Shown piece after piece: positions 6,162 through 27,523 of a stretch of DNA of 33,052 nucleotides. Location: the NCBI GenBank assembly GCA_021801925.1, contig JAKABH010000011.1, positions 1 to 33,052 of the forward strand. Direction: 5' to 3'. A program made the position numbers and the translations under genes. The stretch is from Thermoplasmata archaeon. Its GTDB lineage: Archaea; Thermoplasmatota; Thermoplasmata; Lutacidiplasmatales; UBA184. Each line of letters begins with the position of its first letter. Within the stretch, counting starts at the first letter, position 1. The notes under the pieces are model-generated. The model was not told the DNA's origin and searched no databases. It was given only the letters and a program-made list of their open reading frames with translations.

Positions 6162-8729
6162 TTATGCCGCCGGCGGGGCGTCCGGCGGCCCCGAGGACGG
6201 GCGGAGGACCCAGACCCGCGCGTCGTCCGGCCCGATGTTCCGGGCCCTAAGCACCCGCCGGATCCGCGCCGCTCGCCCGCCGTCCCCGACCACGAACAGG
6301 ACGCAGGCGCCGCGGCCGCGCGCCTTCGCCCAGCCGCGGCCGATCCGGTCGGCCCGCATCGCCCCCGAGACCTCCGCCTCGACGTGCACGTCCCGGCCGC
6401 GGAAGTACCGCCACGCCCAGCCGCCGCGGATCCGATCGAGGAGGGCGGCGAGCTCCGCGGGGGTCGCCCGCGCCGGCGCCGGCAGCTGCCGGAAGAGGGC
6501 GTCGGGGAGCGTCGTGTCGAAGCGGCCCTGCCGGAGGATCTCGATCCGGTAGCCGCGTCGCGCGAAGACGCGGAAGGTCCGCAGCAGCAGGGCGCGGTGC
6601 TCGCTCGTCTCGCGGGTCGCCCCGGTCGGCCGGGTGAGCCCGAGCTGCCGCTCGCCGGCGGCGCTGAGCCGGAGCCGGCCGCCGACCCGTTCGATCGCCG
6701 GACTCCGGGCGAGCCGCTCCCACGCCCGTTCGAGGAGTTCGGGGGCGACCGGCCCGCCCGGGAGCGCAGCCGCCGCCGCCACCGCCTCCGCCGGACCGAG
6801 CGGGCGGCCCTCCTCCGCCGCGCCGAGGACGGCGAGGAGGAGGCGATCGACCGGCCCCTCCTCGACCGCCGCGGCGTCGGCCCCGGCGTCGCCGACGCCG
6901 AACTCGAGGCGCGTGGCGCGGAGCCGGTCGGCCCACGTCGGGCCCGGGTCGGACGGGCCGGGCGGCTCGGTCGGCAGCGCGACCGGCCCCTCGCGCTCGG
7001 GGTCGGTCGCGAGGCCCACGCCGACGGGGAGGGCGGGCAGCGTCGCCGCGGCGACGGCGGTCGGCAGGCCGATCCACGGACCGACCGTCCCCGCGGTCGC
7101 CGGGGGCACCCGCATCGCGACGAACGCGCTCGCGGCGCCGGCGGCGGCGCTCCGCACCTCGGGCGCGAGCCGGTCCGGGTACTGCGTCGCGACGAGCGCC
7201 TCGACCCCGAACTTGCGGCCCTCGGCGAGCAATTCCGCGACGAGCCGCGGCGCGAGGCCCTGGACCTCGTCCAGGACGAACAGGACCGGCGGATCGTCGG
7301 GGGCGCGGGGCCGGGCCGCGAGGCCGAGGTAGATCCGGCCGAGCACGAGCGTCGCCGCGAACGTCGCCGCCTCGGGGCCGAGCGCGGCGATCGGGAGCCG
7401 GATCGCGACCGCGCGGCCGTCGGCGAGCAGCCCCTCGGCGTCGAGCCCGCCGTCCGACGGGGCGAGGAGCTCGAGGAGGCCGGGGACGAGCACGACCTTC
7501 GAGAGCCGGGTCGCCGCCGACCAGAGGAACTCGGGGTCCCGCCGCAGGATCGGCCCGAGCTCGTCCAGGAAGCGGGCGACCGCCGGACGGAGCGGGCCGA
7601 GGCGGGCCGCCTCCCGCCGTTCCCCGTCGGTGAGGAGGGCGTAGAGGTCGACGAGCGACCCGCCCTGGTCGAGGACGAGGCGGGCGAACGAGTCGAAGAT
7701 CCGCTCGAGCCGGAACCCCCAGGCGATCTCGGTGCCGTCCGGGCTCAGCCGCTTGACCGCCGCCACGAAGTGGGCGGCGGCCCGGTCGGTCGAGGCGCTC
7801 CCCGCGACGAGGCCGGCGATCCCCGGGACCGGCGACGCGCTCGCGTCGACGGCGACGAGCCGCGCCTGCGCCGCCGCGGGGAGGCGGCGAAGCAGCCGCG
7901 GGGCGAGGTCGCCGTGGAGGTCGACGACGACCGCCGGCCGCCCGTCGGCGATCGCTTGGGCCGCCCGGGCGGCGAGCCACGTCGTCTTCCCCGCGCCCGA
8001 CGCCCCGAAGACGATCGTGTGGCCCGGCGGCGACCGGCCGGGCCGGGCGAATTCGGCGAGCCCGAGTTCGGCGGTGGCCGGCCACGGCTCGGGGGCCGTC
8101 CCCCACGCCCCGGCCGGGAGTGTACGGGCGCGGCCCCGCCGCCAGTCCCGGGCGGCCCCGAGCCGGAGGGTACCGATCCGGGCGGCGACCCCGGTGGCCC
8201 GCCTCCAATCGGCGACGAGCCGTGCGGCGACGGCGTCGAAGGCGCGGTCCCGCACCGCGGGATCGGCGGCGCCGACCCGGAAGCGGAGCCCGACCTTGAG
8301 GCCGCTCGAGCCGGCGTTCACCCAGAACGCCTGCACCGCGAAGCCGGCGCCCGCCGCGCGCAGCGGCCCGAGCGCCGGCGTCTCCGCCGGTACGGCGGGG
8401 GCGGCCGCGGGGCCGTCCGGCGGAGGCGGCCCCGGGTCGGGGACGATCGCCCCGAAGCGGCCCGCGCCGGGGCCGGGCGGCTCGGGCGCCGGCGGCACCG
8501 GGACCCGGCGGAGGCGGACCGATCCGGCGGCCGGGGCGCCGACCAGGGAGCCGGCGAGCGAGGCGGGGCGGAGGACGACGGTCGGCGGATCGCCGTCGTC
8601 GGCCGCCTCGAACAGCGCGCCGGCGGAAAGGCCGGCTCCCACGACGGCGTGGTGGACGGCCCGGTACCAGCGGAGCCGTCCGGCGTACGGGCCGTCGACC
8701 CGCACGGCGGCGACGTCAGGCGCGGACAC
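6162..8729 (-). CDS. HerA/TraD-like P-loop ATPase with winged-helix-like and putative PD-(D/E)XK-like C-terminal domain
   Basis: Walker A HTIVFGASGAGKTTW, Walker B PVLFVLDEVQGLAPRL, VATQYPDRL sensor-like motif; C-terminal TLPDALF…RDVHVEAEVS…CVLFVV. Confidence 0.85.
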   Translation of the reverse strand: MSAPDVAAVRVDGPYAGRLRWYRAVHHAVVGAGLSAGALFEAADDGDPPTVVLRPASLAGSLVGAPAAGSVRLRRVPVPPAPEPPGPGAGRFGAIVPDPGPPPPDGPAAAPAVPAETPALGPLRAAGAGFAVQAFWVNAGSSGLKVGLRFRVGAADPAVRDRAFDAVAARLVADWRRATGVAARIGTLRLGAARDWRRGRARTLPAGAWGTAPEPWPATAELGLAEFARPGRSPPGHTIVFGASGAGKTTWLAARAAQAIADGRPAVVVDLHGDLAPRLLRRLPAAAQARLVAVDASASPVPGIAGLVAGSASTDRAAAHFVAAVKRLSPDGTEIAWGFRLERIFDSFARLVLDQGGSLVDLYALLTDGERREAARLGPLRPAVARFLDELGPILRRDPEFLWSAATRLSKVVLVPGLLELLAPSDGGLDAEGLLADGRAVAIRLPIAALGPEAATFAATLVLGRIYLGLAARPRAPDDPPVLFVLDEVQGLAPRLVAELLAEGRKFGVEALVATQYPDRLAPEVRSAAAGAASAFVAMRVPPATAGTVGPWIGLPTAVAAATLPALPVGVGLATDPEREGPVALPTEPPGPSDPGPTWADRLRATRLEFGVGDAGADAAAVEEGPVDRLLLAVLGAAEEGRPLGPAEAVAAAAALPGGPVAPELLERAWERLARSPAIERVGGRLRLSAAGERQLGLTRPTGATRETSEHRALLLRTFRVFARRGYRIEILRQGRFDTTLPDALFRQLPAPARATPAELAALLDRIRGGWAWRYFRGRDVHVEAEVSGAMRADRIGRGWAKARGRGACVLFVVGDGGRAARIRRVLRARNIGPDDARVWVLRPSSGPPDAPPAA

Positions 8730-9815: not shown

Positions 9816-10301
9816 CTACCGGGATCGGGACGGCGCCGGGTCGGCGACCACGATGCGGGGGAGCTCCCCCTGGATCGCCGGCGGGCGCCGGTCCGCGCGC
9901 GCCGCCCGGGCGGTCGCCTGGTGGCGGGAGAGGACCCACTTCTCGCCCCAGGCGCGCAGTTCGCGCGCGGCGGGGGCGAGCCCGAGCCCCATCTCGGTGA
10001 GCGAGTAGACGACCGAGAACGGCCGGGTGCTCACGACGGTCCGCTGGACGACCCCCTGGCCCTCCAGGAACTTGAGCGTCGCGCTGAGCGTCTTCGCGTT
10101 CAGGTGGGGGCTCGACCTCAGGATCTCGCTGAACCGTTGCGGCCCCTCGAGGAGGCGGTGGACGATCGCGAGCCGCCACTCGGTGCCGATGACCCCTACG
10201 GCCGCCATCACCGGACAGAGCTCGCGTTCGTCTCCAATGTCGCAGGCGTCCGACGGGGCGGCGGCCAACGGGCCGGTGCGGCGGGGGGGAAGTGGATCCA
10301 T
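9816..10301 (-). CDS. HxlR-family winged-helix transcriptional regulator
   Basis: CPVMAAVGVIGTEWRLAIVHRLLEGPQRFSEILRSSPHLNAKTLSATLKFLEGQGVVQR…VVYSLTEMGLGL. Confidence 0.92.
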   Translation of the reverse strand: MDPLPPRRTGPLAAAPSDACDIGDERELCPVMAAVGVIGTEWRLAIVHRLLEGPQRFSEILRSSPHLNAKTLSATLKFLEGQGVVQRTVVSTRPFSVVYSLTEMGLGLAPAARELRAWGEKWVLSRHQATARAARADRRPPAIQGELPRIVVADPAPSRSR

Positions 10302-21484: not shown

Positions 21485-21517
21485 GGGGCCGCTCCCCTCG
21501 CGGGGACGACCCCCGCG
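21484..21517. terminator. Tandem hairpins directly after the hydrolase stop codon
   Basis: AGGGG-ccgct-CCCCT (21484-21498) then CGCGGGG-acgac-CCCCGCG (21499-21517). Confidence 0.35.
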
Positions 21518-21958
21518 GCGGGCGCCGTTCCTCCGGGGCCGCGCCCGGCCGCCGAAGGCCGGTGGGATGGGCGGGCGGAGCGGCTCCCGATGAGCCCCTT
21601 CCGCGGAAGGGCCCCGCCCTTTCCCCGTAGAGGTAGCCTCGCGCCCCGGGAATCTACGCAGGACCCCTGTCCGCGGGCGCGGATCGGGCGCGCCGTCCCG
21701 CGCGGAAGCGAGAGGCGACGGGCTTCCTGGTGCCGGTGCGTCCGTCCCGTCGCTACGTTTCGCGGCGCCCGCTGCTCTCCGAAGGAAAGCACTACCCGTC
21801 CTGACCGCTCCCTGTCGCCCCGGATCGGCCCGGACCCGAGGGCGCCTCCCGCACCTCGGGGCCGGCGCACCGCGGCGCGGCGCCCGTACCCCCGCCTTAG
21901 GTTTCCCGGGCGACGCGTAGGGCGCGCGCCGCCGCTTGCCCTCCCCAGGGAACGCGCC

Positions 21959-21970
21959 GGGGTATACCCC
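21959..21970. promoter_or_regulatory. Palindromic promoter/operator of merA
   Basis: Perfect 12-bp palindrome GGGGTATACCCC containing the TATA-like core, ~21-32 nt upstream of ATG 21991. Confidence 0.5.
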
Positions 21971-21990: not shown

Positions 21991-23406
21991 ATGTCGCGGA
22001 CCCGAAGCGCGCCGTACGACCTCGTGATCCTGGGCGGGGGCGCGGCCGCGTTCGCCGCCGCCATCCGGGCCGACGAACTCGGCTTCCGGTCGGTGATGAT
22101 CAATCACGGCCTGCCGATGGGAGGCACCTGCGTCAACGTCGGCTGCATTCCATCGAAGTTCCTTTTGGAGGCCGGGAACGAGTACTTCTACCGGCAGAGC
22201 CCCCAGTTCGCGTGCAACCTCCCCGGCGCCGTCCGCTGCGACTTTCCCGAGGCGATCGCCCACAAGGACCGGATGGTCCGACGGCTGCGGAAGGTCAACT
22301 ACCGGGAGGTGCTGGACGGTCGCAAGATCGAGTACGTCGCCGCCTCCGGGCGGCTCGAATCGGGCCGCCGGGTCCGCGCCGGGGGGCGGCTCTTCGAGGG
22401 CCGTAACGTCCTCATCGCCACGGGCTCCGCGCCGAAGATCCCGCCGATCGACGGCCTCGCGTCCGTCGGGTACCTCACGAATCGGACCCTGATGCAACGC
22501 ACGGACCGTCCGGACGAGCTGCTCGTCCTCGGGGGCGGCCCGCTCGGGCTGGAGTTCGCCCAGATGTATGCCCACTTCGGGAGCGCGGTCACGGTGATCG
22601 AGTCGGCCGACCGTCTCCTCCCCCTCGAGGAGCCCGAGGTCTCCGCCGAGCTCACCGCGTGCCTGCAACGCGAGGGGATCCGGATCCACGTCGGAGCGAG
22701 GGTCCGCGCGGTCCGGCGCCGCGCCGGGCGCCTCGTCTGCGAGGTGACGAACGGGCAGGGCCCTATCCCGTGCCAGGTCGACGACCTCCTGGTCGCCACC
22801 GGTGTCGCGCCGAACACGACCGGCCTCGGCTTGGCCGAGGCGGGCGTGGCCCTCACCGACCGCGGCTTCGTGCAGACCGACCGGCACTTCCGGACGAGCG
22901 TGCCCGGAGTCTGGGCGGCCGGCGACGTGACGGGGCGGCTCCAGCTGGAGACGGTCGCCGCCAAGGAAGGGGCGCTGGCGGCCTCCAACGCGCTGAACGG
23001 GGAGCAGCGGTCGATCGACTACGACCTCGTTCCCCACGCGGTCTTCACGAACCCCCAGGTGGCGAGCGTCGGGCTCACGGAGGCGGAGTACCTCCGTCGC
23101 GGCGGGGCCTGCGAGTGCCGGGTGATCGGCATGGACCGCCTTCCGAAGGCGCTCACGGTCGGCGACACCCGCGGCGTGCTCAAGATGATCGCCGACGCGA
23201 AGTCCCGCCGCGTGGTCGGGGTCCACATCGTCTCCCCCCTCGCCGCCGACATGATCCACGCGGCGGCGTATGCGCTCCGGGGACGGCTCACGGTCGAGGA
23301 GATCATCGACACCGTCCACGTCTTTCCGACGTTCTCCGAGGCGATCAAGGTCGCCGCCGAGTCGTTCCACCACGACATGAGCCAGATGTCATGTTGCATC
23401 GAGTGA
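21991..23406 (+). CDS. merA: Mercuric reductase, lacking an N-terminal NmerA domain
   Basis: GGTCVNVGCIPSK redox disulfide, LLVLGGGPLGLEFAQMY NADPH domain, C-terminal vicinal cysteines HHDMSQMSCCIE. Confidence 0.92.
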   Translation: MSRTRSAPYDLVILGGGAAAFAAAIRADELGFRSVMINHGLPMGGTCVNVGCIPSKFLLEAGNEYFYRQSPQFACNLPGAVRCDFPEAIAHKDRMVRRLRKVNYREVLDGRKIEYVAASGRLESGRRVRAGGRLFEGRNVLIATGSAPKIPPIDGLASVGYLTNRTLMQRTDRPDELLVLGGGPLGLEFAQMYAHFGSAVTVIESADRLLPLEEPEVSAELTACLQREGIRIHVGARVRAVRRRAGRLVCEVTNGQGPIPCQVDDLLVATGVAPNTTGLGLAEAGVALTDRGFVQTDRHFRTSVPGVWAAGDVTGRLQLETVAAKEGALAASNALNGEQRSIDYDLVPHAVFTNPQVASVGLTEAEYLRRGGACECRVIGMDRLPKALTVGDTRGVLKMIADAKSRRVVGVHIVSPLAADMIHAAAYALRGRLTVEEIIDTVHVFPTFSEAIKVAAESFHHDMSQMSCCIE

Positions 23407-23707
23407 GCACTGGGGTTCCCCGGGCGAGTCCGGAAGGGGCGTCGGCGGGGGGCGGGCGGGTCCCGCGCCGCTGGGGAGGCCGGGCCCGCGCGTCGGGCCG
23501 AGCGTCCCGCCGGATCGGGGCGACCCCCCCTACCGGCGGCGGGGCCGTTCCGTGGCGGTGCGTCTCGGGGAGGCGGGCCGCCGGCCGCCGCCTCGGCCCC
23601 CCGACGCCGGTGGCGGTCGTCGCCCTCGCTCTCCGCACGGCACCGGAGCGCCGCGAGGAGCGAGACCGGAGTCGTCCCGGAGCCATCTCCGCGAGGCAGG
23701 GAGGCCC

Positions 23708-24445
23708 GTGAGCGCTCGGCGGAAGGCGGGGCCCCAGACGCTACGGTGTCCCGTCTGCGAGACGAGCGTACGCGCCGATCGGTTGGCGTCGCACGTCCGT
23801 GCGGTACATCCGCGCGAGCAGGGGAACCGGTCCGTACTGCAAGCCCTGCAGAACGCGCCTGCGTCGACGGCCGGGGCCGTTCCGCACCGACTGAAGGGCA
23901 CTCCCTGGTGGACCCGAGGACGGGTGATCGGGATCACGATCGCGGTGGCGATCGTCGTCCTGGTCGCCTACGCCCTGGTGAGAGCCCCGCCGACCAGCGT
24001 GCGGAACGGGGCGGCGGCGCCGGACTTCACCTTCACCGACGCCCAGGGATCTTCGCTTTCGCTGAGTTCGTTCCTCGGGAAACCGATCGTGCTGTGGTGG
24101 GTCGCCACGTGGTGCAGCAGCTGCATCGAGGGGACCCAGATCTTCGCCCAACAGTACTACGCCTCGTATCGCTCGGCGGGCGTGACCGTCCTCGAGATCG
24201 AATCGTACAACGATCTCGGGCAGACGGGGCCGAGCATCGAAGCCATGGCGAGCCAGAACGGGTACACGGGTCAGGCCGGGTGGATCATCGGAGAGGGCTC
24301 CGCCCACGCGACCAGCCTCTACAATCCGAACTCGGACCTCGAGTACTACTACGTCCTCAGCCCGCAAGGGACCGTCGTGACCCAAGGGACCCCGTTGACC
24401 GGGTCGTTCGGTGCGGCGCTCTCGGCCGCCCAAGGGTCCCAATGA
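23708..24445 (+). CDS. Membrane-anchored thioredoxin-like (TlpA/redoxin) protein with N-terminal C2H2 zinc finger
   Basis: LRCPVCETSVRADRLASHVRAVHP finger; TM GRVIGITIAVAIVVLVAYALV; APDFTFTDAQGSSLSLSSFLGKPIVLWWVATWCSSCIEGTQIF. Confidence 0.88.
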   Translation: MSARRKAGPQTLRCPVCETSVRADRLASHVRAVHPREQGNRSVLQALQNAPASTAGAVPHRLKGTPWWTRGRVIGITIAVAIVVLVAYALVRAPPTSVRNGAAAPDFTFTDAQGSSLSLSSFLGKPIVLWWVATWCSSCIEGTQIFAQQYYASYRSAGVTVLEIESYNDLGQTGPSIEAMASQNGYTGQAGWIIGEGSAHATSLYNPNSDLEYYYVLSPQGTVVTQGTPLTGSFGAALSAAQGSQ

Positions 24446-25011
24446 GCCCACCCGGCCCGCGTCCGATCTTTCCCGAGGTCCGGGCGCTTCGGACCGTCGC
24501 GGCCGAGCGATCGTACCTCCTGGCCCTGGTCGCCCTGGCCCCCGCGACCGGGTTGCTGTATGCCTGGCTGCTGCAGGCCGCCCTGCTCGGGACGGTCCAG
24601 CCGTGGATCCTGCGGTACGTCACGGTGCCGGAACTTTTGTTTTCCCTGGCAATGGCGTTCCTGCTCCCCGCCGCCATCCTGGTGAATCTCTACCTTCGGG
24701 GGCACCCGCGCTGCGATGGGGCCTCCGGCCGACGGGCGGGATCGGGTCTCCTTCCCGCCTTGATCGTCGGCCTCGCGCCGAATCTCCTGTGCTGTACCCC
24801 CTTCGTGCCCGCGGTGCTGGCGATCTTCCTCTCCGGAGCCACCCTCCTGTCCGTCTCCGGCCCAATCCAGCATTTTCTCGGGGTCGACGCGCCCCTGCTC
24901 TACGCCGTGGCCGCCCTCTCGGCCTGGGGCTCCCTCCGTATCGCCTCCCGAGCCGTGGCGGGCCCGGCACCGGCCCCGGCCATCTGCTGCGAAGTCCAAG
25001 ATCCCCGCTGA
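24442..25011 (+). CDS. Polytopic (~4 TM) membrane protein with two vicinal cysteine pairs, possible Hg(II) transporter
   Basis: ATGA overlap with the redoxin gene; GLAPNLLCCTPFVPAVLAIFLSG in TM3 and C-terminal AICCEVQDPR. Confidence 0.82.
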   Translation: MSPPGPRPIFPEVRALRTVAAERSYLLALVALAPATGLLYAWLLQAALLGTVQPWILRYVTVPELLFSLAMAFLLPAAILVNLYLRGHPRCDGASGRRAGSGLLPALIVGLAPNLLCCTPFVPAVLAIFLSGATLLSVSGPIQHFLGVDAPLLYAVAALSAWGSLRIASRAVAGPAPAPAICCEVQDPR

Positions 25012-25336: not shown

Positions 25337-26651
25337 GGTTCTTCCGGATTCTGGGTGGGTAGCCTGATGGCGTAGGAGCGGCTCGGGTCCGCCGGTGGAC
25401 GGCGTGCAGGATGCGGATCTCTGGAGCCGATTGCTGGGACTGGAACCTCCTTGGTCGGTGGAGCGGATCGAGCTCCATGTCCGTGATGAAAAGGTCGATG
25501 TGTATCAGGTGCACGCTGACGGAGTGCTCTGGCCGTGCCCGGAGTGCGGGAACAAGCTCCCGGCCTACGACCACAAGGACGAGCGGGTCTGGCGGCACCT
25601 CGACACCATGGCGTTCCAGACCGGGGTCCGCGCCCGGCCGCCTCGAGTGGAGTGCCCCGACCACGGCGTCCGTCCGGCGGGAGTGCCCTGGGCCGAGTCG
25701 AACAGCCGCTTCACGAAGTTCTTCGAGCGCTTTGCCATCGATGTCGCTCAGGAGACCGACCCCAAGGGCGCGGGGAAGATCCTCAAGCTCAGCTGGGACG
25801 AGGTCTGGGGCGTCCAGGAGCGGGCCGTCGCCCGCGGGCTTCGGGCCAAACCACCGGTGGCGCTCCGCTTCATGGGGGTCGACGAGAAGGCCGTCGGCCA
25901 CGGCCACCAGTACGCCACGATCGTCTACAACCTCGAAGAGGGGACGGGGGAGTGGGTCGGGGAGGGCCGGAAGAAGGAGACCCTCGACGGCTTCTTCCAG
26001 GGCCTCACCACCGAGCAGCGCGCCGGGATTGAGGCCGGGGGCCTCGACATGTGGGGTCCGTTCATCGCCTCGATTCGGGAGCATGTTCCCGGGGCGGAGG
26101 GGAAGCTGGTCTACGACCCGTTCCATATCGTCGGCCACATGAATGAGGCGGGCAACGACGTCCGGAAGCGGGAGCACCGGCAGCTATCGGAGGAGGGGAG
26201 GAGTCCTCTCGGTGGCACTCGGTTCTGGTGGCTCTACGGTCGAGAGAACCTCCCGGAGAGGCACCGGGAGGGGTTCGCCGCCCTCCACGCGGCGCACTTG
26301 AAGACTGGGCGAGCCTACGCGATCAAGGAGGCGCTCCGCGACCTCCGGGTCCAGGACTCCTCGAAGACGGGAGCGGCGTACTGGCGGTGGTGGCGCTTCT
26401 GGGCGACGCACAGCCGCCTGGCGCCCGTGATCCGTGTGGCCCAGATGATGAAGGCCCACCTCGATGGAGGGCTGAACTACTTCGCGCACCGGATCGCGAA
26501 CGCAGTGGCAGAGGGGCTCAACTCGAAGATCGCGACCCTCCAGAAGCTGGTCTACGGATTCCGCAACAAGGACCACTTCCGGACGGCGGTCTTGTTTCGA
26601 TGTGGAGGCCTTCAGTTACATCCCGTGACCCACCCGATTCCCGGATGAGCC
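25337..26651 (+). mobile_element. ISL3-family insertion sequence
   Basis: Terminal inverted repeats GGTTCTTCCGGATTCTGGGTGGGT (25337-25360) and GGCTCATCCGGGAATCGGGTGGGT (reverse complement of 26628-26651), 17/24 identical ungapped, flanking a transposase; no 8-bp target duplication seen. Confidence 0.83.
25395..26648 (+). CDS. ISL3 family transposase
   Basis: N-terminal zinc finger CPECGNKLPAYDHKDERVWRHLD, RFMGVDEKAVGHGHQYATIVYNL, VYDPFHIVGHMNEA, NAVAEGLNSKIATLQKLVYGFRN. Confidence 0.94.
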   Translation: MDGVQDADLWSRLLGLEPPWSVERIELHVRDEKVDVYQVHADGVLWPCPECGNKLPAYDHKDERVWRHLDTMAFQTGVRARPPRVECPDHGVRPAGVPWAESNSRFTKFFERFAIDVAQETDPKGAGKILKLSWDEVWGVQERAVARGLRAKPPVALRFMGVDEKAVGHGHQYATIVYNLEEGTGEWVGEGRKKETLDGFFQGLTTEQRAGIEAGGLDMWGPFIASIREHVPGAEGKLVYDPFHIVGHMNEAGNDVRKREHRQLSEEGRSPLGGTRFWWLYGRENLPERHREGFAALHAAHLKTGRAYAIKEALRDLRVQDSSKTGAAYWRWWRFWATHSRLAPVIRVAQMMKAHLDGGLNYFAHRIANAVAEGLNSKIATLQKLVYGFRNKDHFRTAVLFRCGGLQLHPVTHPIPG

Positions 26652-26714: not shown

Positions 26715-27155
26715 ATGCAGGTCGTGGAGATCCCGGTCCTTCGGTGCCACCGTTGCGCCTACGCCTGGCGTCCCTCGCAACCCGTGGTCCGCATGTGTCC
26801 CCGCTGTAAGTCTACCCTATGGGATCGGCCCAAACTCCGTACGGAACTGGGCCCACGGACCGGCCTAGGGGTCGAGCAGGTCGTGGGTCGCCACCGGAAC
26901 GAGCTTCTGAGAATCGCCCGCCGCCACGGTGCGCGCTCTGTGCGTGTCTTTGGCTCGGTCCGCCGCGGCCAGGCGAGCCGGCAGAGCGATTTGGACCTTC
27001 TGATCACTTTCCGGAAGGGGGCCGACCTCTTTGACCAACTCCATATGGAGCGAGAGTTGAGTGTTCTTCTCGGGAGGGCTGTCGACGTGGTCACGGAAAG
27101 TGGCCTGCATCCTCTCGTGCGGCCCCAGGTGCTCTTCGAGGCGATTCCGCTGTGA
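26715..27155 (+). CDS. MNT nucleotidyltransferase antitoxin (MntA-like) with N-terminal zinc ribbon
   Basis: LRCHRCAYAWRPSQPVVRMCPRCKSTLWDRP ribbon; VRVFGSVRRGQASRQSDLDLLITF (GSx10DxD). Confidence 0.9.
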   Translation: MQVVEIPVLRCHRCAYAWRPSQPVVRMCPRCKSTLWDRPKLRTELGPRTGLGVEQVVGRHRNELLRIARRHGARSVRVFGSVRRGQASRQSDLDLLITFRKGADLFDQLHMERELSVLLGRAVDVVTESGLHPLVRPQVLFEAIPL

Positions 27156-27523
27156 CCTCACCAGATGAAGTCCGGTTGGACGAGATGCTCGAGGCCATCG
27201 AGAGAACCAAGGGCTACGTTTCCCGGGGGCGCGGGGTGTTCTTCTCCGATTACGACACCCGGGAACTCGTAATTCATCACCTGGAGCACCTGTCCGAGTC
27301 GGCGGACCAGGCATCCCAACGAATCAAGAGAGCGAACTCTCTCGTCCCGTGGCAAGACCTCCGCGAGCTGCGGACCCGACTGATTCATCAGTACATGCGG
27401 CCGGACCCGGAAGCCGTTTGGGCCTTCGTCCGGGATCGACTGCCCAAGATTGAGCGACAGTTGCGACGCGTGCGGGTGGTTTCGAGTCCTCGTGAGCTCG
27501 GTCCGGACTCACCGAGAAAGTAG
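27152..27523 (+). CDS. HEPN toxin, HepT/DUF86-like
   Basis: RTRLIHQY (Rx4HxY) within a helical DUF86-like sequence; GTGA overlap with the antitoxin stop. Confidence 0.92.
   Translation: MTSPDEVRLDEMLEAIERTKGYVSRGRGVFFSDYDTRELVIHHLEHLSESADQASQRIKRANSLVPWQDLRELRTRLIHQYMRPDPEAVWAFVRDRLPKIERQLRRVRVVSSPRELGPDSPRK

Follow-up and report, generated by a model that had tools for sequence, protein, structure and literature searches.

A membrane-anchored thioredoxin-fold protein (the redoxin) and a membrane protein with vicinal cysteines (the CC membrane protein), encoded beside merA in a Thermoplasmata archaeon, are probably an overlooked part of microbial mercury capture and movement. They are assigned to mercury handling because the pair recurs beside merA in unrelated archaea and bacteria. 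We rate the locus as a mer operon carrying an undescribed, putative Hg-handling module; mer operons themselves are known. The original prediction had placed merA, a gene for a C2H2-TM-thioredoxin-fold protein and a gene for a membrane protein in a row, and open reading frames and profiles find all three where they were expected in the window, which is the whole 33,052 nt stretch of DNA that was analysed (Table 1).

Table 1. Features of the merA cassette and its borders, with positions in the window
Feature	Position	Strand	Evidence
Truncated HxlR-type regulator relic	21514..21791	-	tblastn, E 6e-11
TATA-box-like GGTATACC	21961..21968	+	30 nt before merA
merA, mercury(II) reductase, 471 aa	21991..23406	+	TIGR02053; PDB; active-site residues
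Decayed MerF-like gene remnant	23403..23711	+	Alignment with intact gene, L049 7949-8254
Redoxin, 245 aa, GTG start: C2H2-type motif, one TM, ResA-like domain	23708..24445	+	Pfam, fold model, family alignments
CC membrane protein, 189 aa, four predicted TM helices	24442..25011	+	Family alignment, model
ISL3-family insertion element, downstream cassette border	25337..26651	+	Pfam/NCBIfam ISL3 transposase, 25395-26648

The merA cassette and what it has lost

The product of the first gene scores 534.6 bits against TIGR02053, for which the curated equivalog cut-off is 454.45, and its best PDB matches are mercuric reductases. It carries the redox-active pair C47-x4-C52, Y104 (equivalent to Tyr264), F445 (equivalent to Phe605) and a C-terminal vicinal pair, C468-C469; the list of archaeal MerA features, Phe605 included, is taken from the available part of a survey (PMC3466566; Boyd and Barkay, 2012). 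Judged by these scores and residues, the product is a true MerA. A motif resembling GGTATACC is found at the same distance from merA in the closest relative (L049) and in L052/L054, and GGTATACC is a putative promoter element of merA.

The redoxin and membrane genes share an ATGA between stop and start, the 4 nt overlap that had been predicted, and the gap after merA, put at about 300 nt, is 301 nt (23407-23707). In L049, merA is followed by a small intact MerF-like gene, the redoxin gene and the CC gene, with a 4 nt overlap at each junction. By hhalign the MerF-like proteins of L047, L049 and L053 match MerF at 94% and MerT at 87%, above shuffled controls. The corresponding remnant in the window retains both 4 nt GTGA overlaps but has lost the TM helices and the CC pair; its dN equals its dS (0.61/0.61) and codon-position bias is absent. 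The nucleotide score of the gap against the L049 gene (39, compared with a shuffle maximum of 35) is weak alone and is supported by the position of the remnant. From alignment and position, the gap is what a MerF-like gene has left behind on decaying.

The relic of an HxlR-type regulator upstream of merA has a nucleotide score of 82 in comparison with a shuffle maximum of 39, and an intact copy of the regulator that it matches, oriented divergently to merA, is present in L049, L052 and L054. HxlR-type regulators adjoin merA in 12 relatives (L047, L048, L049, L050, L052-L056 and L058-L060), the copy in L048 being partly degraded, and those beside merA have conserved cysteines (CMI...YCID). The merA-adjacent HxlR protein, which differs from both MerR and ArsR, is a candidate sensor of mercury in archaea; we found no paper in the open literature on HxlR with mercuric reductase in archaea. 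An intact HxlR-family regulator is also encoded in the window at 9816-10301 on the - strand, 12 kb upstream of merA.

The dN/dS ratio is 0.11 for merA (window and L049 compared), 0.28 for the redoxin gene and 0.24 for the CC gene. These three genes look to be under purifying selection while the MerF-like gene and the regulator have decayed. The source genome (1.57 Mb, 94.7% complete, of which the window is contig 20) has no HMA domain and no MerT above the profile cut-off, in agreement with the original prediction, which had recognised neither MerP nor MerT. Because the MerF-like neighbour has decayed and the genome is without a MerP-type (HMA) protein, the window pair would be what remains of the import side.

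The cassette appears in mobile surroundings. An 86% identical copy of the ISL3 element, with the same ends, is present in L065 (4913-6227), and homology between the window and L049 stops at the cassette borders. The L065 copy interrupts the redoxin gene, and in the L065 membrane gene (6284-6844) an in-frame TGA stands precisely where the CC pair should have its second Cys; the L065 pair is probably a broken copy. A 4.5 kb merA cassette, in which the membrane gene is reduced to a relic, is 99.8% identical in L052 (1-4519) and L054 (4073-8591), from genomes of two genera, and this near-identity reflects either a recent transfer or an error in binning. The window also encodes, downstream of its ISL3 element, a nucleotidyltransferase and HepT-like pair (MNT/HepT type toxin-antitoxin, 26715-27523). 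PADLOC gave no match to anti-phage defence.

Two proteins with paired cysteines

The redoxin has an N-terminal C2H2-type motif (C14-x2-C17-x11-H29-x4-H34), a single predicted TM helix (residues 73-91) and a domain above the Pfam AhpC-TSA/Redoxin cut-off with the active-site motif WCSSC. Pfam zf-Di19 scores 18.7 bits against the N-terminus, below the cut-off of 27.5, and the redoxin family profile matches the PDB finger 2elo (E 0.005). The motif is absent from the redoxins of L064, L066, L067 and L102. The structure model has the ResA fold (pLDDT 80; best PDB match ResA, TMt 0.82). This thioredoxin fold rules the protein out as MerP, which has an HMA fold with a CXXC metal site.

Fold, CXXC and membrane anchor are shared with the ResA/TlpA-type thiol-disulfide oxidoreductases, from which the window redoxin differs in its mer linkage, its C2H2-type motif and the lack of a cis-proline opposite the CXXC. 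In an HMM alignment the cis-proline of ResA falls on an acidic residue of the redoxin family, which is Glu in the window protein. All 20 redoxins, archaeal and bacterial, keep the CXXC and have Asp or Glu at the cis-proline position. In thioredoxins the cis-proline is conserved more strongly than the CXXC and may stop metal binding there (PMC2757866, citing Su et al., 2007). Its loss therefore disfavours ordinary disulfide exchange, and metal binding would be permitted.

The cysteines of the window CC membrane protein are CC 117-118 in TM3, C91 in loop 2 and CC 182-183 in the C-tail. Both of the vicinal pairs that had been predicted are thus present, but CC 182-183 is not conserved in the alignment and we rejected it as a family hallmark. 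The intramembrane CC is invariant in all 23 aligned membrane proteins, archaeal and other, each of which has 1 to 3 further Cys, always in loop 2 or the C-tail; both segments are predicted, by charge, to be cytoplasmic. Vicinal Cys in a TM helix together with Cys on the predicted cytoplasmic side, the arrangement of MerT, MerF and MerC, is therefore found in 23 of 23. In the model, which has low confidence at TM3, this helix is broken at PNxLCCTPxxP. Thermoplasmata and other CC proteins are joined by hhalign at 99.5%. The acidic cis-proline position of the redoxin and the invariant CC with other Cys predicted to be cytoplasmic are two features that fit metal handling.

The CC membrane protein matches no Pfam or NCBIfam family and no fold in the PDB, and a search of viral contigs gave no relatives. 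Membership of MerT/MerF was considered, but Pfam, NCBIfam and hhalign with local-shuffle controls fail to show a relation: the CC family matches MerT at 37% and MerF at 12%, near the shuffled controls, and an enlarged family at 67% and 34%. A paralogous second CC membrane protein follows the first in L046 (9057-9680) and L054 (8911-9519).

Linkage to mer genes in archaea and bacteria

Among 101 genomes of the same family, 13 encode a strict MerA, 13 the membrane gene and 10 both (Fisher P 4e-9, kinship ignored). For 300 genomes of the class the corresponding numbers are 60, 14 and 11 (P 2e-6, kinship ignored), and P is 0.002 when co-occurrence is collapsed to genera. The redoxin and membrane genes lie as a unit, no more than about 3 kb from merA, in G000, G209, G273, G186, G226, G101, G208 and G212; the pair is also near merA in G093 (L067) and apparently, across a contig break, in G154. 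In G200 (L054) the membrane gene survives only as a relic after the merA-adjacent redoxin, and about 2 kb away there is another pair, which is degraded. The predicted linkage thus holds for most Thermoplasmata relatives that have the pair but not for L063, L064, L071, L072 and L102, where the pair is not near merA, and G195 and G207 have it without a strict MerA. Overall, homologues are not consistently away from merA, and the membrane protein matches no known unrelated transporter family; either result would have spoken against the original prediction.

The MerA tree has two clades, one with most family loci and one with the enzymes of L050/L055, L067, L110, L111 and L112. The pair adjoins both clades and its order is swapped in L067, so that pair and merA probably came together on more than one occasion. 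Because 49 of the 60 MerA-bearing Thermoplasmata are without it, the pair is an accessory. A search of genome contigs with a 6-member membrane-family profile recovered Thermoplasmata MAGs only, one of them labelled 'bacterium'; isolate names suggest that the pair-carrying MAGs come from acid-mine metagenomes.

The system had been proposed as archaeal, and this did not hold. When 72,556 plasmids, unselected for mer, were searched at the protein level with the membrane family, 14 records had a member, and inspection of all 14 placed every one inside a mer cluster, although these amount to about three or four independent lineages and not 14. The plasmids of Acidithiobacillus ferrooxidans YQ-N3 and Acidiphilium multivorum JZ-6 have merR, merA, redoxin and CC genes in the order of the window, and the last two overlap by 4 nt; A. 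multivorum AIU301 pACMV1 has an HTH gene, a hypothetical gene, merA, redoxin and CC genes. These operons (CP084175.1, NZ_CP041718.1 and NC_015178.1) share gene order and homologous redoxin and CC proteins with the window. They differ in having a MerR regulator, a MerA with an N-terminal HMA domain, and a redoxin whose N-terminus is signal-like and lacks the zinc-finger motif; the records give these products no name. A 197 aa Met-rich protein is encoded downstream of one bacterial merA-redoxin-CC operon (L121, 8410-9003).

Two Halorussus plasmids carry merB and merA with a divergent unit of ArsR, a 79 aa CC protein (L124, 4071-4310), a protein in which zinc-finger-like repeats are combined with a redoxin region and DUF3105 (L124, 4536-5987), and the CC membrane protein. 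Single-sequence hhalign gives no support for the 79 aa protein as a relative of MerF. Neither MerT nor a stand-alone MerP was found in L121-L124. Finally, a gammaproteobacterial Tn3-family mer transposon on marine and IncC plasmids (IncC pIP40a and R16a; Shewanella sp. ANA-3) has merR-T-P-C-A and, downstream, a second unit (L126, 4998-6414; also L125 and L128-L134) of MerR2, a 131 aa membrane protein and a CC protein whose gene overlaps the one upstream by 4 nt; there is no redoxin. The settings of the plasmid relatives include haloarchaea of saline soil as well as mer transposons from marine and clinical sources. Because the arrangement seen in the window recurs in other archaea and in bacteria, it is more than chance.

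The original prediction also had the pair replacing MerP and MerT. This fits the window, the Acidithiobacillus and Acidiphilium plasmids and Halorussus. However, L050/L055 and L067 have an HMA (MerP-like) protein alongside the pair, L047/L049/L053 have a MerF-like protein with it, and the transposon has its CC protein beside merT-P-C. Strict replacement is therefore not general, but the window and the acidophile plasmids are plausible cases of it.

A possible route for mercury and the alternatives

In bacterial mer import, MerP and MerT, MerC or MerF lead to MerA. The window module has the same succession of paired Cys outside, in the membrane and inside, beside merA, and the same CC followed by Pro in a TM helix. 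Unlike the bacterial proteins, its outer component has a thioredoxin fold, not an HMA fold, and its membrane component belongs to a four-TM family for which a relation to MerT/MerF is not demonstrated.

We think it somewhat likely that the redoxin and CC protein serve the mer system as an accessory module, binding Hg(II) on the outer side of the membrane and passing it in to MerA. The anchored redoxin, facing outward, would bind Hg(II) by its CXXC pair, the loss of the cis-proline having opened the thioredoxin fold to metal. Hg(II) would then be exchanged to the buried CC of TM3 and from there to the cytoplasmic Cys of loop 2 or the C-tail, which would pass it to MerA for reduction to Hg(0). 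Sequence gives the identity of the genes, their linkage to mer across domains, the invariance of the cysteines, the loss of the cis-proline and the selection acting on the merA, redoxin and CC genes; the topology, the binding of Hg(II) and its direction of travel are inferred. The adjacency to merA of two clades, the operon order shared across domains, the mer linkage of all 14 plasmids and the four overlapping genes of L049 are in favour of this, and so are the lack of HMA and MerT in the source genome, the cysteine and cis-proline features of the two families and the purifying selection. The occurrence of MerP-, MerF- or MerT-like proteins in other clusters together with the pair or the CC protein, the undemonstrated relation of the membrane family to MerT/MerF and the transposon CC protein without a redoxin count against it, as do the pairs away from merA, which adjoin MsrB/MsrA in L071 and a pyridine nucleotide-disulfide reductase in L072.

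These last neighbours make an envelope thiol-redox system the main and a serious rival, though we consider it unlikely. The membrane protein would pass electrons outward in the manner of CcdA/DsbD and keep the extracytoplasmic redoxin reduced; the redoxin would repair thiols damaged by Hg(II) and oxidants, so that the linkage to mercury would come from damage and not from transport. The ResA/TlpA fold and CXXC agree with such a role. Matches of the CC family to DsbD_2 (2 of 12 members, E 0.068) and MauE (1 of 12, E 0.019) are marginal, and no CcdA/DsbD model is matched above its cut-off. The Asp or Glu at the cis-proline position throughout the redoxins, the mer linkage of all 14 plasmids and the Tn3 transposon, where the membrane protein accompanies mer genes without a redoxin, also argue against it.

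It is improbable that the pair excludes Hg(II), or holds it at the outer face, with no import. The same anatomy would suit an outward or holding role, and the genomes with a pair but no strict MerA are consistent with one, but the operon is coupled to an intracellular reductase and the extra Cys are all on the predicted cytoplasmic side, as in import relays. It is very improbable that the pair only travels with merA on mobile islands and plays no part in mercury handling: the cassette is mobile, as the near-identical copies in two genera and the end of homology to L049 at its borders indicate, but in L049 merA, the MerF-like gene, the redoxin gene and the membrane gene overlap by 4 nt, gene order is the same in bacteria and archaea, and the pair or the CC protein is also found in haloarchaea of saline soil and in mer transposons of marine and clinical origin.

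Capture and inward transfer of Hg(II) may extend to a wider proposal, which we make tentatively: a second kind of mercury relay, common to archaea and bacteria, in which a thioredoxin-fold Hg(II) chaperone without the cis-proline and a four-TM CC carrier would do the work of MerP and MerT, and which would be the sole surviving import side in the window. Neither a redoxin nor such a membrane protein is among the mer functions given in the available parts of PMC3466566 and PMC8261052 (Christakis et al., 2021), and we found no paper on a redoxin with a mer operon in the open literature, subscription journals being outside the scope of the search.

According to the available part of the survey of Boyd and Barkay (2012), archaeal mer loci are generally without membrane and extracytoplasmic Hg-handling proteins, which raises the question of whether Hg(II) is delivered to MerA in archaea and by what means. 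A conserved module of two unnamed proteins, encoded beside merA in haloarchaea and in acidophiles among both archaea and bacteria, makes archaeal Hg(II) delivery testable in ordinary laboratory strains, and the membrane part of the module also rides classical IncC mer transposons. If the proposal is true, a thioredoxin fold would have been turned from disulfide exchange to metal handling.
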